A stretch of DNA of 64,000 nucleotides from positions 1 to 64,000 of the forward strand of contig JACOEK010000010.1 of NCBI GenBank assembly GCA_024998595.1, in the 5' to 3' direction. Numbering within the stretch: the first letter of the stretch is position 1; every line of letters starts with the position of its first letter. The notes below the pieces were generated by a model. The model saw nothing but the letters and a program-made list of their open reading frames with translations, had not been told where the DNA came from and did not search any database. Below are positions 6,959-20,590 of this stretch, one piece after another. The translations under genes and the position numbers were made by a program. Origin of the DNA: Nitrospira sp. (GTDB taxonomy: Bacteria > Nitrospirota > Nitrospiria > Nitrospirales > Nitrospiraceae).

Positions 6959-7105
6959 TTGACACCACTCTCGCAGACCTTTAGGGTAGATCCATGACGT
7001 ACTGAGCCACGCTGGCTTTCTCCTTTCGCGCGCCCCGTCTCTCCTTCCTCCTCACTCCCTGCGCGTGCGAGTCCCAAGTCTTCGCTGCTTCGACGCTACA
7101 GAGCA
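6959..7105 (+). promoter_or_regulatory. Promoter plus conserved leader, copy A
   Basis: TTGACA (6959-6964), a 17-base spacer and TAGGGT (6982-6987) form a sigma-70-like promoter. Six bases later comes ATGACGT (6994-7000), then a pyrimidine-rich stretch with CCTCC, and finally GTCTTCGCTGCTTC (7078-7091) and CAGAG. The same order of elements recurs at 10254 and 14244. This copy precedes two micro-proteins at 7214 and 7376 with a leader of about 220 bases. Promoter activity is inferred from the three-way conservation. Confidence 0.6.
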
Positions 7106-7213
7106 AGAGTCCAATGATGGTAGCCCGCAATGATCGGTCGTTGATCGATCAGTCGATCTACTCGGATGGAATCTTCTGCCCAGGGCGAGATTCGCGCAGT
7201 CAGGGAGGGTGTC

Positions 7214-10146: not shown

Positions 10147-10253
10147 ACGAGGCGATTGATCCGATTTCACTCGGCGCTGAGAGCAGCGGTCCGCTCTATA
10201 CTCAGTGGATACCTGTCGGCATCAGTTGACAACGGGCTAGGTCTCAATATCGC

Positions 10254-10395
10254 TTGACTCGGATCGCCAGAGAGCTTAGCGTGAACATATGACGTCTCTA
10301 GCTCCGTCGACTGTTCTCTCCCTCGCGCTTCGAACCTCCATCCCGCGCGACTGATTGTCCGGTCTCCGTCGCTTCTTACGCCAGAGTGCCCTGCA
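10254..10395 (+). promoter_or_regulatory. Promoter plus conserved leader, copy B
   Basis: TTGACT (10254-10259), 17 bases, TAGCGT (10277-10282), six bases, then ATGACGT (10289-10295). The leader continues with CGACTGTTCTCTCCC, CCTCCATCCC and GGTCTCCGTCGCTTCT (10361-10376), ending TACGCCAGAG (10377-10386). Copy C aligns with this over about 110 bases with few gaps. It precedes the A-type Fe-S carrier and the oxidoreductase operon, giving a leader of about 230 bases. Confidence 0.65.
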
Positions 10396-10518
10396 CTGAC
10401 CGATGATGCCGTCTTCGTGAACGGAGCGATTGTCGCTTGCGGTGAAGAACGGTGTTGTGCCCAGTCGTTCCATCCGACACCATTGTCCGTTTCATATAGC
10501 AGTACAAGGGAGCAACCT

Positions 10519-10839
10519 ATGATTACCATTACCGCCACGGCAGAAGAGAAAATTCGCGAATTGATGCTGGAAGAGAAAGACACGCTCGGGTTGCGTGTGT
10601 ACGTGAAAGGCGGGGGTTGCCATGGCTATCAATACGGAATGGCATTCGAGTCAAAGATGAGCGACGACGATACCGTCATTGAAAAGGGCGATGTGAAGGT
10701 GATCATGGATTCGCAAAGCGCTCCTCTATTGAACGGCTGTGAAGTCGATTATGTCGATAGCGTGCAGGGTTCTGGCTTTGCGATCAAGAATCCGCAAGCC
10801 AAGACCACCTGTGGGTGCGGCAGCTCATTCAGTGCCTAA
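10519..10839 (+). CDS. erpA: A-type iron-sulfur carrier (ErpA/IscA family)
   Basis: The 106-residue protein delivers Fe-S clusters to apo-enzymes. The three conserved cysteines are visible in GGGCHGYQYG and the C-terminal TCGCGSSF motif; the fold starts ITITATAEEKIRELML. ATG 10519 follows AAGGGAG (10505-10511). It lies 55 bases before the oxidoreductase alpha subunit and is preceded by promoter copy B, so it may mature the 4Fe-4S clusters of the encoded beta subunits. Assignment to ErpA rather than another A-type carrier is by general likeness. Confidence 0.9.
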   Translation: MITITATAEEKIRELMLEEKDTLGLRVYVKGGGCHGYQYGMAFESKMSDDDTVIEKGDVKVIMDSQSAPLLNGCEVDYVDSVQGSGFAIKNPQAKTTCGCGSSFSA

Positions 10840-10894: not shown

Positions 10895-12100
10895 ATGGAA
10901 CCCACATCCGTCATCGGAACCAAAAATAAAAAAGGCCAGGTCTTCACCGACCCCCGCATCATGATGCGGGAGGCGCCTCGTACGCCGTCTTTTTATACCG
11001 GCAGCGAAGTCATTAAGGAAGCCATCCGTCGCGCTAGCATCGACGTGATGATCGCGTATCCGATCACACCGCAAAGCGAGGCCGCTGCATTGATCGGCGA
11101 GCTGTTTGCGGAGGGCTACATCGGAGACTATTTCCGCGGGGAAAGTGAATTTGCCGTGATGTCGCAATGCGCAGGGGCCGCTTTCGGCGGAGCCCGTGTC
11201 TTCACGACGACGGCAGGACCCGGCACGATGCGGGCGATGGAAAATTTCCCCATGTGGGCGGGTGCCCGCCTCCCGATCCAATGTATCGTGACCTGCCGGG
11301 GGATCAATTCCCCGCTGTCGATTCAACCGGACACCATCGAGATTTCCTATTTGATGCAGACAGGCATGCTTGTCTGGCATGCGGAGACGGCGCAAGACTT
11401 CTATGATTGGATTCTCGTGGGCTATATGGTGTCGGAGGAGCCCGAGGTGCATTTGCCATTGGCGCTCTGCTGCGACGGATTCTTTGTGACGCACACCAAA
11501 GACGTTGTCGATCTGACGCCGACAGATATGTGTCTGCCGCCCTACGACCCGTATCGTTCACCGGTGCCTTGCATGGATATGGAATGTCCGCCGGTCCGGA
11601 TGATGCGCGATCCGTTCATCATGAAAAGCAACTACATCAGTTATGCCACGCACGCGAGCTGGCAGCAGGAGGTCTGGGCTGCTGCAGAACGGTCGCGGAA
11701 GCACACGATTGCCTGGTTGAACGGGTTAATCGAAACTGAAGATGTTGAGGCCGACGTGCTCATCGTCACCTCCGGTACCGCCGTGTCTCAGGGGCGTGAA
11801 GCGATTCGTCTTCTGGCCGATGAAGGTATTCGCGTGGGACTGGTGAAGATCAAAACGCTCCGGCCCTGGCCGGAAGAGGAAATTAAGGAAGCCACCAAGC
11901 ACGCCACTCACATCATTGTGCCGGAATTCAATGTCATCGGGTGGATGGCGAAGGAGATCAAGGCGACCATTCCACGAAGTGAGCGTGTCATCGCCGGTCC
12001 GCGAGTGTGTGGCGGGATGACCATGCCGCCAGAGATCATCGTGGAGGAAATTAAGCGCGCGCTTGGGGTGCGTTCCGGCACGCTCGCCGGTCGCGGTTGA
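10895..12100 (+). CDS. porA: 2-oxoacid:ferredoxin oxidoreductase, alpha subunit
   Basis: The 401-residue alpha subunit of a pyruvate- or 2-oxoacid:ferredoxin oxidoreductase provides the substrate and pyrophosphate domains. YPITPQS at 55-61 is the thiamine-contacting motif, RGESEFAVMSQCAGAAFGGAR and TTAGPGTMRAMENF follow, and the C-terminal domain II runs to about 390 with VLIVTSGTAVSQGREAIRLL. In autotrophs such enzymes fix CO2 onto acetyl- or succinyl-CoA in the reductive TCA cycle. ATG 10895 follows AAGGAGG. Whether pyruvate or 2-oxoglutarate is the substrate cannot be read from sequence. Gamma and delta genes are absent here. Confidence 0.9.
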   Translation: MEPTSVIGTKNKKGQVFTDPRIMMREAPRTPSFYTGSEVIKEAIRRASIDVMIAYPITPQSEAAALIGELFAEGYIGDYFRGESEFAVMSQCAGAAFGGARVFTTTAGPGTMRAMENFPMWAGARLPIQCIVTCRGINSPLSIQPDTIEISYLMQTGMLVWHAETAQDFYDWILVGYMVSEEPEVHLPLALCCDGFFVTHTKDVVDLTPTDMCLPPYDPYRSPVPCMDMECPPVRMMRDPFIMKSNYISYATHASWQQEVWAAAERSRKHTIAWLNGLIETEDVEADVLIVTSGTAVSQGREAIRLLADEGIRVGLVKIKTLRPWPEEEIKEATKHATHIIVPEFNVIGWMAKEIKATIPRSERVIAGPRVCGGMTMPPEIIVEEIKRALGVRSGTLAGRG

Positions 12101-12182
12101 CGCGTCGAGCGCCGGAGGACGACAAGAGTTTCTAGACGGTATATCGCACATTGACGCTCAGCAGAGCTGAGAGGAGATAGAG

Positions 12183-13079
12183 ATGAGCAAAGAACGCATC
12201 AAGATTTCGCCGGAACTGTACGACATCATGCCGTCGGACTACCAGGACCTGGTCAGCAGCGCGACCTATGGCAAGGAAGACCGGGGATGGAAAGACATCG
12301 GTACCTCCAAGGAACTCATCGAACAGCACTCACTCTGTGCCGGATGTCCTGAATCCATGGCCTTTCGCTATATTTTAGCGTCGCTTCCCAACCCCGAAGA
12401 TACGGTCATGGTTGGCTCGACCGGCTGTACGAGTCTCGTGTTTCCGATGGTGGCCGTCCACAACATCCACTCCCTGTTCGGCAACCAGAATGCGATCGCG
12501 TCGGGGCTCAAACGTGCGTTGAGTGTCCGCTTTCCTGATCGGATCAAGGATGTGGTCGTGTTGGCGGGGGATGGTGCGACGGTGGACATCGGCCTGGACA
12601 TGACCCTGCAGGCCTGGTTTCGGCAAGAAAAGTTCACAACCATCTGCTTCGATAACGAACTCTACGCCAACACGGGCGGGCAGGAGAGCGGTCTAATGCA
12701 GAAGGGCTTCGTGGCCAAGATGGCGCCGGTCGGAAAACTGTTCGATAAGGTCAGGTTGCCTGAAATTGCCCGGGAGTCCGGCTGTCACTACGTGGTCAAT
12801 TGCACGGTCAGCAAGCCCTCTCTGGTCGAGAAGGTGGTGCGCAACGCCGTACTGATCGCGCGTGAAATCGGGCCGACCTATCTGCAACTCTATACGCCCT
12901 GCATTCTGGAGATCGGCAAGAACAGCATGGAAGGTCTGCAGGAAATGCGGGACTCTGAGAAGCCCACGGAGCGTTTTGCCTTCAAGGAATACATCAGCGA
13001 GCCGGCGAAACAGCTCTTAGCGGAGCGTGATGCCAAAGCCAAAGAAAAGAAAGCCGCTGCCAAGCAACTGGTGTCGTAA
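12183..13079 (+). CDS. porB: 2-oxoacid:ferredoxin oxidoreductase, beta subunit 1
   Basis: The 298-residue beta subunit binds thiamine diphosphate and one 4Fe-4S cluster. Cluster cysteines are C52 and C55 (CAGC), C82 (STGC) and C240 (YTPC). The TPP/Mg motif is AGDGATVDIG (GDG 129-131) with DNELYANTGGQ at 157-167. GAGGAGA lies just before the ATG. The C-terminal 30 residues are Lys/Ala-rich. It lies 82 bases after the alpha gene and 52 bases before a second, homologous beta gene. Confidence 0.9.
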   Translation: MSKERIKISPELYDIMPSDYQDLVSSATYGKEDRGWKDIGTSKELIEQHSLCAGCPESMAFRYILASLPNPEDTVMVGSTGCTSLVFPMVAVHNIHSLFGNQNAIASGLKRALSVRFPDRIKDVVVLAGDGATVDIGLDMTLQAWFRQEKFTTICFDNELYANTGGQESGLMQKGFVAKMAPVGKLFDKVRLPEIARESGCHYVVNCTVSKPSLVEKVVRNAVLIAREIGPTYLQLYTPCILEIGKNSMEGLQEMRDSEKPTERFAFKEYISEPAKQLLAERDAKAKEKKAAAKQLVS

Positions 13080-13131
13080 GCGATAGGATTATCACCGCCG
13101 CTTCCGCGGCAATGAGAGAGCGAGGTTTTAG

Positions 13132-14025
13132 ATGAGTCTTGATTATGTGAAGTTTGCACCGGGTTTCGAGCAGTTTATGCCGAAAGAATATCGGGATATG
13201 GTCGAACATGGACCATTCGGAAAAAAGACTACGGTATCGCAGATGGGCAGCTTCAAGGAAATCCTGGAAGAACACCCGATGTGTGCCGGTTGTGCCATGA
13301 CTCTGTTCATCCGGTTGGCGATTATTGCCTTTCCGAATCCCGAAGATACCATTACCGTCGGAACGGCCGGTTGCGGACGATTGGCGATTTCCCAAGCAGC
13401 AATCCCGTTCGTGTACGGGAACTACGGCGACCAGAACGGTGTCGCGAGCGGTTTATCGCGCGGACTTCGGCTCCGTTTCGGCGACAAGCCGAAAGATGTG
13501 GTGGTGATTGCAGGTGACGGCGGAACCGCCGACATTGGCTTTCAGCAGGTGCTGCATTCCTGGTTCCGGAAGGAACGGTTTACGACCATCATGTTGGATA
13601 ACGAAGTGTACGGCAATACCGGCGGGCAGGAAAGCGGGATGACGACCCGTGGCGCTGTGTTGAAAATGGCTCCGCTCGGCAAGAAGTTCGAAAAAATGGA
13701 CATGGTCACGATGGCCAAAGTCGCCGGCTGTTCCTATATCGCCACGGTCGTGCCAAACAATCCGCGGCGGGTGGAAAGCGTCATCAAAAAGGCCGTATTG
13801 ATCGCCCGGGACATCGGCCCGACCTATATTCAAGCCTATACCTCATGCAACATCGAGTACGCGATTCCGACCGACAAGGTGATGGAAGACGCCAAGACGG
13901 TCGAAGACGATCGGTACAAGTTTACCGAGTACGTCAGTGACGAAGCGAAGGCCTATCTGGCCGAGCGATACGGCTACAAGGAATTTATGCCGAAAGCCGT
14001 GTCTGCTTCAGTTACAACGGCTTGA
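13132..14025 (+). CDS. 2-oxoacid:ferredoxin oxidoreductase, beta subunit 2
   Basis: The 297-residue protein is a full-length paralogue of the preceding beta subunit. It keeps every cofactor ligand at the same spacing: C51, C54, C81 and C239, AGDGGTADIG (GDG 128-130) and DNEVYGNTGGQ (156-166). By eye roughly half the positions are identical to beta 1, with the main differences in the first 50 residues, the segment after the third cysteine (GRLAISQAAIPFVYGNYGD) and the C-terminus. It could give the shared alpha subunit a second substrate range or form a mixed complex. A strong hairpin at 14080-14108 closes the operon. Confidence 0.88.
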   Translation: MSLDYVKFAPGFEQFMPKEYRDMVEHGPFGKKTTVSQMGSFKEILEEHPMCAGCAMTLFIRLAIIAFPNPEDTITVGTAGCGRLAISQAAIPFVYGNYGDQNGVASGLSRGLRLRFGDKPKDVVVIAGDGGTADIGFQQVLHSWFRKERFTTIMLDNEVYGNTGGQESGMTTRGAVLKMAPLGKKFEKMDMVTMAKVAGCSYIATVVPNNPRRVESVIKKAVLIARDIGPTYIQAYTSCNIEYAIPTDKVMEDAKTVEDDRYKFTEYVSDEAKAYLAERYGYKEFMPKAVSASVTTA

Positions 14026-14079
14026 GCTTCGTAAAGTAAGCCAGCTCAACCAAGCGTGCGCGGGCTTCTGAAGGTTTCT

Positions 14080-14108
14080 GACGGGTGGGAGTGAGTCTCC
14101 CGCCCGTC
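14080..14108 (+). terminator. Hairpin terminator after the oxidoreductase operon
   Basis: GACGGGTGGGAG (14080-14091) pairs with CTCCCGCCCGTC (14097-14108) over twelve positions including one G-T pair, with a five-base loop. Only a weak pyrimidine run follows, so efficiency is uncertain. Confidence 0.6.
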
Positions 14109-14243
14109 TAACTCCTCTGGCCGCTACCCTCCTTGTTACTTGGTTGATTTGACTGATGCCTGATTCGACGTGCCCCTTGCCCCTTCAAAATAATTAAGTT
14201 GCATGGAATCAATGGCTTGGTCCTTGGACCGCTGTTGGTTCCG

Positions 14244-14390
14244 TTGACACGGCCAGTAATGCCCTGTAGTGTGGGGCATGACGTGTTGAGCCACGCCGAC
14301 TGTCCCATCTTGCGCGCCTCCTTCCATCCTACGCGCGTCTGATTCCCCGGTCTTCGCCGCTTCTACGCCAGAGTTCCCATCTTAGACCAC
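14244..14390 (+). promoter_or_regulatory. Promoter plus conserved leader, copy C
   Basis: TTGACA (14244-14249), 17 bases, TAGTGT (14267-14272), five bases, ATGACGT (14278-14284). The leader continues GAGCCACGCCGACTGTCCC, CCTCCTTCCATCC, then GGTCTTCGCCGCTTCT (14349-14364) and ACGCCAGAG (14365-14373). It leads to the CsbD-like gene at 14473 with an untranslated stretch of about 190 bases. Confidence 0.65.
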
Positions 14391-14472
14391 CGGGTCTCGG
14401 CATGCGTCCGCGCGTGTCAGCCCTCACAACGGTGTGGCGCGGTACTCGCCACGGATACATAAAGGAGACGAT

Positions 14473-14715
14473 ATGACACAGGAACAATTCCAACAGTTCT
14501 GGCTGCAACTCAAAGCTCCCCTCAAGGCCAACTGGGAGAAGATCACTGAAAGCGATCTTGGTGAAATCCAAGGGAGTCTCGTGAAGTTTGGTGATGTGAT
14601 CCAGAAGCGTTATGGTGAGGGGCACAAGGACGAAGTCAGTCTGTGGGCGGATCGCCGCCATGCCCATTGGAGCGGAAATTACCTCGGATACCAAGATCCG
14701 AAGCCAACCGCCTAA
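14473..14715 (+). CDS. CsbD-like stress protein
   Basis: The 80-residue soluble helical protein resembles the CsbD family (general stress response in Bacillus): FWLQLKAPLKANWEKITESD followed by LGEIQGSLVKFGDVIQKRYG. The W-x-K-x-T-x-x-D-L-x-E-I-x-G pattern is diagnostic. The C-terminal 25 residues (WADRRHAHWSGNYLGYQD) are an extension. AAAGGAG sits at 14461-14467. Function in the family is unknown beyond stress induction. It is the first gene after promoter copy C. Confidence 0.78.
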   Translation: MTQEQFQQFWLQLKAPLKANWEKITESDLGEIQGSLVKFGDVIQKRYGEGHKDEVSLWADRRHAHWSGNYLGYQDPKPTA

Positions 14716-19036: not shown

Positions 19037-20590
19037 TTAGGACAGGGGAGTGGTTTCCGGTGATCTTGGGACAGGCCGTCGGATGCCCAGCTTCCGTAAG
19101 CGACTTCGCAGCGTTTCCGGATTGAGTCCTAACAGAGTGGCCGCCCCCTGGTCGCCGTAGATTCGCCATTTGGTCCGTTCCAGCATCAAAATAATATGGT
19201 GCCGTTCGAGTTCTTGGAGGCTGTCGGTCTGATTCATCGAGGCGGCGCGACCGGCCTGTAGGATTGGAAGCAACATTTCATCTACGGTGACCTGGCATGA
19301 GCTGGAGAGGATCACTGCTCGTTCAATCACATTTTGAAGCTCGCGGACGTTTCCGGGCCAGTTGTAGGAAAGGAGCCGTGCCAGCGATTGCGGGTCAAAG
19401 GTCAGATGTGGTCGCTTATGTTTGGCGCCGAACTGCGCGAGGAAATGTTGCGCGAGGAGTTGAATATCCTCACGGCGTTCCCGGAGGGGAGGGACGGCTA
19501 TTGGAAAGATGTGGAGCCGGTAGTACAGGTCGGCTCGAAAAGTCCCCTGTTGAATCGCCGCGGAAAGGTTGGCATTGGTGGCGGCAATTAGACGAACATT
19601 CACGGAGACCGGCTGAGTTCCGCCAATTCTATCCACCATGCCATCCTGGAGTACACGCAGCAGCTTGGCCTGGGTCTCTAACGGCATGTCGCCGACCTCG
19701 TCTAAAAACAAGGTGCCTGTATGGGCCAATTCGAAACGTCCGGCTCTTCGGAGTTGGGCTCCGGTGAAGGCACCGCGTTCATGACCGAATAATTCACTCT
19801 CGATCAGGCCTGAAGGAAGGGCTGCGCAATTGACGCGAATAAATGGCTTTTGACTGCGCGTGCTTAAGTCATGCAGAGCCTGGGCCAACACTTCCTTGCC
19901 CGTCCCGGTTTCCCCGAGAAGGAGGACGGTTGTATCGGTCGGAGCGACGGCTTTCACAAGCTCGACCACCTTGCTGAATGAGGAAGATGCGCCGACCAGC
20001 AGGCGTTGATTTCGGCTTGCCTTGACCTCCTCTGCAAGATACTCATTCTCGCGTCGCAAACGCTCGCTCAATTGTTTGATCTGCTGATAGGCGAGTACGT
20101 GATCGATGGCATAGGCGATCTGAGTGGCGACCTGCTGCAAAAATTTGCAGTCGTCCGGATCCGGATGGCCCTCTCGCACACTGCCGATGTTTAATGTTCC
20201 GAGACAATGTTCTCGGACCAGCAACGGCAGGTTGATCATGCGTCCTAACCCTTCTTGGGTATAAAAACGGTCCTCCAGGAAGACTTGCTCCTTCTGAAGG
20301 TTGGCACGAATGTGCAGGCGACGGTTGTCATGCACCCATCCTACCGCGCTGCCTTCACGGGGGATTACGCTGTCATGCGCCAGAGCCGGAGTGGCCATAT
20401 TGGTGATGACGGCATAGAACCGAAAGGAATCGGTATCGGATTCGTACAAGGTAATGCCCGCACGATCCCACGGAATAACTTTTTGGATCTGGTCGGCGAT
20501 GACCCGCCAGAGACTCTCGATGTCTCGCTGCGAGTTCAGGGCATTCGTGACTTCGAGGAGCGTCTCAAAATTCAAGGTTGCGCGTTGCAT
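19037..20590 (-). CDS. Sigma-54-dependent activator with GAF sensor
   Basis: The 517-residue protein has three parts: a GAF sensor domain (about 1-165), an AAA+ sigma-54 interaction domain (about 197-425) and a Fis-type helix-turn-helix (about 480-507, GAATLLGLNPETLRSRLRKL). GETGTGKE is at 226-233, the sigma-54-contacting GAFTGA at 273-278 and the Walker B FLDEVG at 295-300. This is the FhlA/NorR-like arrangement, regulated by a ligand bound at the GAF domain rather than by phosphorylation. It starts six bases after the stop of the porin gene, so the two form an operon. I found no clear -24/-12 site nearby. Confidence 0.93.
   Translation of the reverse strand: MQRATLNFETLLEVTNALNSQRDIESLWRVIADQIQKVIPWDRAGITLYESDTDSFRFYAVITNMATPALAHDSVIPREGSAVGWVHDNRRLHIRANLQKEQVFLEDRFYTQEGLGRMINLPLLVREHCLGTLNIGSVREGHPDPDDCKFLQQVATQIAYAIDHVLAYQQIKQLSERLRRENEYLAEEVKASRNQRLLVGASSSFSKVVELVKAVAPTDTTVLLLGETGTGKEVLAQALHDLSTRSQKPFIRVNCAALPSGLIESELFGHERGAFTGAQLRRAGRFELAHTGTLFLDEVGDMPLETQAKLLRVLQDGMVDRIGGTQPVSVNVRLIAATNANLSAAIQQGTFRADLYYRLHIFPIAVPPLRERREDIQLLAQHFLAQFGAKHKRPHLTFDPQSLARLLSYNWPGNVRELQNVIERAVILSSSCQVTVDEMLLPILQAGRAASMNQTDSLQELERHHIILMLERTKWRIYGDQGAATLLGLNPETLRSRLRKLGIRRPVPRSPETTPLS

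Follow-up and report, generated by a model that had tools for sequence, protein, structure and literature searches.

Genes at the locus

The window analysed here, a single stretch of 64,000 nucleotides from a Nitrospira genome, contains a cluster of genes for subunits of 2-oxoacid:ferredoxin oxidoreductase (OFOR) together with an iron-sulfur carrier, hereafter the cassette (Table 1). The first-pass annotation had read one alpha gene followed by two full-length beta genes, and the profile matches on the forward strand bear this out; it missed, however, the start of the cluster, which is opened by erpA3, 55 bp upstream of alpha3. The product of erpA3 is 85% identical to that of the housekeeping erpA and is thus a second ErpA copy. 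Both betas have the cluster cysteines that had been listed (52/55/82/240 in beta3, 51/54/81/239 in beta'3) and the thiamine pyrophosphate (TPP) motif, a GDG at residues 129 and 128, respectively; positions 51, 54, 81, 239 and also 200 do not vary among the 129 betas compared. The two proteins are 43% identical, with 33, 35, 59, 57, 47 and 31% identity over six equal segments, so that the minima lie at both ends and not, as had been supposed, mainly near the substrate side.

Table 1. Features of the cassette, of the upstream element and of related loci in the same genome (C numbers denote contigs, other positions are those of the window; POR and OGOR are putative names by annotation)
Feature	Position	Strand	Description
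Element, third copy	6990-7107	+	upstream of the 7534-9085 gene group (exported protein, HHH, MlaC)
Element, cassette copy	10285-10392	+	imperfect palindrome of about 105 bp; putative regulatory leader or promoter element
erpA3	10519 (ATG)-10839 (stop)	+	A-type [Fe-S] carrier; NCBIfam ErpA equivalog, score above cut-off
alpha3	10895-12100	+	401 aa; POR_N and PFOR_II; extra copy of complex 2 alpha (POR type)
beta3	12183-13079	+	298 aa; TPP_enzyme_C; extra copy of complex 2 beta (POR type)
beta'3	13132-14025	+	297 aa; TPP_enzyme_C; extra copy of complex 1 beta (OGOR type)
Hairpin 3' of beta'3	14078-14111	+	strong; read from the sequence; possible terminator
Element, second copy	14274-14379	+	before the YjbJ/CsbD-like gene
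YjbJ/CsbD-like gene	14434-14715		
Sigma-54 activator gene	19037-20590	-	GAF type; named from sequence, not from a profile
Element, further copies	C2:570701-570808; C14:157317-157423		
Complex 1	C6:612074-616229		order beta1, gamma1, epsilon1, delta1, alpha1 (alpha1 at C6:614880-616229)
Complex 2	C6:769456-773377	-	order delta2, alpha2, beta2, gamma2, epsilon2
POR-gamma genes	C6:613033; C6:769935		
Housekeeping erpA	C9:14678-14995		

No gene for a gamma, delta or epsilon subunit or for a ferredoxin lies within the cluster, in keeping with the first reading for gamma, delta and ferredoxin, and tblastn searches of 34 loci with the gamma, delta and epsilon1 sequences of the same genome found no trace of these subunits. 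As for the terminator that had been placed at 14080, a strong hairpin can indeed be read there, but it has no T-run and is absent from the list produced by a terminator scan of the window. A gene for a GAF-type sigma-54 activator lies near the cassette, as it does in several other loci of the genus.

Paralogy to two five-subunit complexes

The genome (4.23 Mb in 15 contigs) encodes three POR_N alphas above the cut-off and two POR-gammas, both of which sit in complete five-gene sets outside the cassette; the delta and epsilon genes of these sets were assigned from their position, size and cysteine pattern rather than by profile. The gamma and delta genes whose presence elsewhere was to be checked are found on contig C6. 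alpha3 shares 86.5% of its residues with alpha2 and 49.5% with alpha1, beta3 is 95.0% identical to beta2, and beta'3 is 88.6% identical to beta1. Three Nitrospira marina peptides have been published as POR alpha (PMC8115632, in the part consulted) and are nearer to alpha2 and alpha3 than to alpha1 (10-11 of 12 residues against 7 of 12 for the best peptide); complex 2 is thus putatively called POR and complex 1 OGOR, names based on annotation. Given this paralogy to two different complexes, the cluster consists of a POR-type alpha, a POR-type beta and an OGOR-type beta, all of them extra copies. The notion of a shared alpha serving both betas is not supported, since the betas are of the types of two different complexes, each with its own alpha. 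Indeed, the first-pass annotation had itself conceded that another alpha, adjacent to oxidoreductase genes and suited to the second beta, would speak against it, and alpha1 is such a gene.

Two other classifications were rejected. A tandem duplication of one beta is at odds with the 43% identity and with the beta tree, in which beta3 and beta'3 fall into separate clades with different canonical betas. In the two-subunit KorAB-type layout a gamma domain is fused to alpha, giving a long alpha; alpha3, with 401 residues, has no PF01558 domain. The cassette does have the alpha (POR_N and PFOR_II) and the beta (TPP domain and four conserved cysteines) of a five-subunit OFOR, but not its gamma, delta and epsilon genes in the same operon, the only gammas being those of complexes 1 and 2.

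Distribution, modularity and decay

Among 29 genomes of the genus, 17 have erpA3 (94-100% identical), always beside cassette genes, and 12 lack it. The beta3 sequence is present in 15 of these 17 genomes, one copy being interrupted; in the other two the contigs stop inside alpha3 directly 3' of erpA3. None of the 12 genus genomes without erpA3 has beta3. Two beta1-type copies occur in 39 of 147 family genomes, and a second such copy was found in none of the 46 phylum genomes outside the family that have a beta1-type match. In another genus of the family, two loci (L122 in G072 and L123 in G075) carry a lone extra POR-type beta without erpA or beta'. Contigs C111 and C34 of G014, a genome with 5% contamination, hold a duplicated canonical POR alpha-beta pair (L071 and L072), which is not a cassette.

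In total, 36 cassette loci were compared, of which three are cut by contig ends. The 33 complete loci all have erpA3; beta' is present in 32, a count partly selected because loci beyond the genus were picked via a beta' or second-beta match (which does not affect the erpA3 count), and intact alpha3 and beta3 are present in 20 and 19, respectively. Alpha and beta3 have been lost independently: both betas occur without an intact alpha3 in 11 loci, whereas 13 loci of other genera have alpha3 and beta' but lack beta3. In G001, G003, G012 and G018 alpha3 is reduced to codons 356-401, and the gene is absent from G020, G022, G024, G025, G026 and four genomes of other genera. G024 has also lost beta'. 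In Ca. N. defluvii (G001), where alpha3 is the 46-codon remnant, beta3 is split by an istA/istB insertion (L048, 8890-11116), which we take to be IS21-like, and erpA3 and beta'3 are intact. One locus (L121 in G031) is rearranged to alpha-beta-erpA-beta', with alpha first and the element described below placed before it.

Age and selection

An alpha tree of 96 rows places alpha2 in a clade, supported at 100/100, that is separate from alpha3 and includes several genera; likewise, a quick beta tree of 131 rows sets beta1 apart from beta'3 in a clade with support 100, again with several genera inside. The beta2/beta3 split is poorly resolved in the latter tree, since these sequences are so alike. 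Judging from the tree topologies, the alpha2/alpha3 and beta1/beta'3 duplications are older than the genera. Synonymous divergence between each cassette gene and its own paralog is saturated or nearly so (pS of 0.767 for alpha, 0.859 for beta, 0.775 for beta' and 0.687 for erpA), and the corresponding dN values are 0.105, 0.040, 0.074 and 0.123. Within the genus, dN/dS over finite pairs is 0.0149 for alpha3, 0.0131 for beta3, 0.0099 for beta'3 and 0.0114 for erpA3, and 0.0040-0.0134 for the canonical subunits. Purifying selection acts on the cassette copies, which are old; within the genus, dN in their betas is about twice that of the canonical betas (0.010 and 0.0095 against 0.0054 and 0.0050). 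This faster change and the visible decay (the alpha remnants of four genomes, the N. defluvii insertion and the loss of beta' in G024) indicate that the cassette is dispensable.

At a threshold of 90%, near-fixed differences across the family number two between beta3 and beta2 (residues 286 and 289, C-terminal), eight between beta'3 and beta1, and sixteen between alpha3 and alpha2, and no change in active-site chemistry is apparent among them. The 16 changes from alpha2 to alpha3, like the 23 between the alpha3 of full loci and that of alpha-beta' loci, are mostly conservative, and the former reveal no clear shift toward residues of alpha1, the OGOR-type alpha with which beta'3 would have to pair.

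The quick tree places the canonical beta protein of G015 with beta3. Gene conversion by beta3, which would have demonstrated direct interchange of betas, was considered and dropped, the nucleotide identity to beta3 being about 80% with saturated synonymous sites. In ten genomes of other genera (the L108-L120 group of loci), pS is 0.33 for alpha3 and 0.64 for alpha2; this lower synonymous divergence of cassette than of canonical copies may be due to transfer between species or to codon constraint.

An upstream palindromic element

The window contains three copies of the imperfect palindrome that precedes the cassette, and the genome at least five (150 of 2353 candidates scored). An nhmmer search places the element ahead of erpA3, at 119-137 bp from its start, in 30 of the 35 erpA3 loci; as for the other five, G127 is too near a contig end, G031 has the element before alpha3, and in G107, G130 and G137 it lies about 750 bp upstream. 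It was found at none of 77 canonical operons (41 of complex 2 and 36 of complex 1). The lone extra POR beta of G072 and of G075 has an element about 260 bp upstream.

With 150 candidates scored in each of 16 genomes, 11 gave matches. Cassette-bearing genomes have at least two (G001), six (G020), four (G023), seven (G093), seven (G107) and ten (G130). For genus genomes without the cassette, there is at least one in each of G004 and G005, and none among the 150 candidates of G006, G010, G016 and G021; for other genomes, there is at least one in G029 and in G040, at least two in G033, and none among the 150 candidates of G059. The element is conserved across Nitrospiraceae genera, and small exported-protein genes are also found downstream of it.

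Six of ten proteins encoded downstream of the element have Pfam matches (CsbD twice, BON, HSP20, DUF1328 and CBS) and four have no family; BON and PepSY genes also follow it in the genome studied here. The YjbJ/CsbD-like reading frame of the window has no Pfam match and a weak match to PRK10428 below the cut-off. Gene sets with CsbD/YjbJ, OsmY (BON) and DUF1328 have a general-stress role. Thus, a cis element common to stress-type genes, as expected of a general-stress regulon, is present, and the families downstream suggest that the cassette may belong to such a regulon; the vagueness of the CsbD, BON and DUF1328 functions themselves counts against this link.

The element has no match in Rfam, whether judged by gathering score across the window or, for 10250-10540, by E-value. 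Its alignment folds into a long imperfect hairpin of 24 pairs, with 97.5% of cells paired and five pairs with compensatory change; such changes occur in 17 cells, against 5.3 in shuffles, for a structure derived from the same alignment. The erpA3 copy folds on both strands, with a z of only -1.33 on the forward strand and of -2.69 on the reverse strand. The element is a putative, undescribed regulatory sequence that may act as DNA or RNA.

Proposed replacement subunits and other readings

On balance, and with some reserve, we favour the interpretation that erpA3-alpha3-beta3-beta'3 is a cassette linked to stress, which encodes replacement catalytic subunits and an Fe-S carrier of its own. The targets would be POR and OGOR, which fix CO2 in the reductive TCA cycle and are oxygen-labile. 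The extra betas, which would bring TPP and the adjacent [4Fe-4S] cluster, may join gamma, delta and epsilon from the canonical operons, beta'3 in each case using the canonical alpha as well. ErpA3 would be dedicated to the cluster loading of the extra subunits, the palindromic leader would place the cassette in a general-stress-type regulon, and spare subunits would be made when existing ones are damaged or short of clusters. Persistence of the betas where alpha3 has been deleted implies that alpha3 is not required for their action, which would presumably take place within the canonical complexes. The exchange of catalytic subunits was a sound idea in the first-pass annotation. More tentatively, the whole may be a subunit-replacement system for two CO2-fixing enzymes, in which interchangeable subunits, a private A-type carrier and the undescribed element of about 105 bp sustain an oxygen-labile reductive TCA cycle under stress in an aerobic autotroph. 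Several observations count against replacement subunits: alpha3, for which pure spare betas would have no need, is kept in 20 of 33 loci, the cassette is dispensable, as the raised dN of its betas and its visible decay indicate, and 12 of 29 genus genomes manage without it.

One alternative is a heteromeric or hybrid enzyme, in which alpha3 with beta'3, or with both betas, would form a third oxidoreductase with a substrate range of its own. The POR-type alpha3 does stand directly with the OGOR-type beta'3 in the 13 loci of other genera that have no beta3, and the full set persists in seven of the 33 complete loci. For the alpha2-beta-beta' enzyme first envisaged, however, alpha, beta and beta' would be expected side by side in every locus. 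In 11 loci both betas remain with alpha gone or reduced to a remnant, and in a twelfth, that of N. defluvii, only beta' is intact. Moreover, alpha3 has not clearly moved toward alpha1 residues, the two betas, with 43% identity, come from different complexes, and there is no private gamma. A new heteromeric enzyme is thus unlikely, and replacement subunits fit better because extra subunits of both enzymes, a co-inherited carrier, separate losses of alpha and of beta, and an element common to stress-type genes occur together.

We consider it equally unlikely that the extra copies act by gene dosage, raising the amounts of POR and OGOR betas whatever the conditions and without a particular role in stress. 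This would suit the near identity of beta3 and beta2 (95%, with two diagnostic residues family-wide), but the distinct upstream element, missing from canonical operons, and the co-inherited second erpA both point to separate control. Still less probable is that a third OFOR operon lost gamma, delta and epsilon and that the cassette is its decaying relic. The alpha remnants, the insertion in beta3, the missing beta' of some genomes and a dN above that of canonical betas are what decay would leave; a dN/dS near 0.01 for all four genes, the retention of erpA3 and beta' across several genera, and the lack of any tblastn trace of gamma, delta or epsilon in the 34 loci argue otherwise.

POR and OGOR have oxygen-sensitive clusters, yet both drive CO2 fixation in aerobic nitrifiers. 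The explanation offered in the portions of the literature consulted is that the five-subunit forms are O2-tolerant. If replacement does take place, a supply of fresh betas along with a cluster carrier, controlled by a stress-type element, would answer the oxygen problem in a second way. The naturally deleted versions of the cassette across species provide ready-made comparisons.

Comparison with known systems

Publications on Nitrospirales describe five-subunit POR and OGOR, a four-subunit POR and KorAB (PMC8115632, PMC10579370, PMC10052474, PMC3578206, PMC12542776, PMC6606698), and the portions consulted of these six do not mention erpA-linked extra subunits. Searches for Nitrospira literature with erpA, or with CsbD and general stress, found nothing, and the consulted parts of the literature on Nitrospira paralogs and additional copies, a scope outside which the N. 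defluvii genome paper falls, contain no description of the cassette.

Five-subunit POR and OGOR are known, from the sections available, in Hydrogenobacter, Aquifex and Nitrospira (PMC10052474, PMC8115632). The cassette resembles them in the type of its alpha and betas, the TPP motif and the four cluster cysteines; unlike them, it has no gamma, delta or epsilon, mixes two complexes, and comes with an erpA and an upstream element of its own. N. marina has a four-subunit POR induced at low O2, consisting of alpha, beta, gamma and a ferredoxin-like protein and described, in the part of the source seen, as Pyrococcus/Thermotoga-like (PMC8115632). On that description it is likewise an additional Nitrospira POR gene set, the different expression being a property of the N. 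marina set, whereas the genes of the window are paralogs of the five-subunit enzymes. With the general-stress gene sets of CsbD/YjbJ, OsmY (BON) and DUF1328 the cassette shares the element, which lies upstream of the same families in several relatives; in contrast to known sets of this kind, the element and its regulator are undescribed here and no sigma factor is linked.

A functional parallel is offered by YfiD/GrcA, a separate polypeptide that, in the part of the source consulted, takes the place of a part of pyruvate formate-lyase that oxygen has damaged (PMC8683613). As far as that account goes, the likeness is one of analogy only, that of a spare part for an oxygen-damaged pyruvate enzyme. 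YfiD/GrcA is not known to be homologous to the cassette subunits. Whereas YfiD/GrcA is a glycyl-radical domain, the cassette would supply whole Fe-S/TPP subunits for two enzymes.
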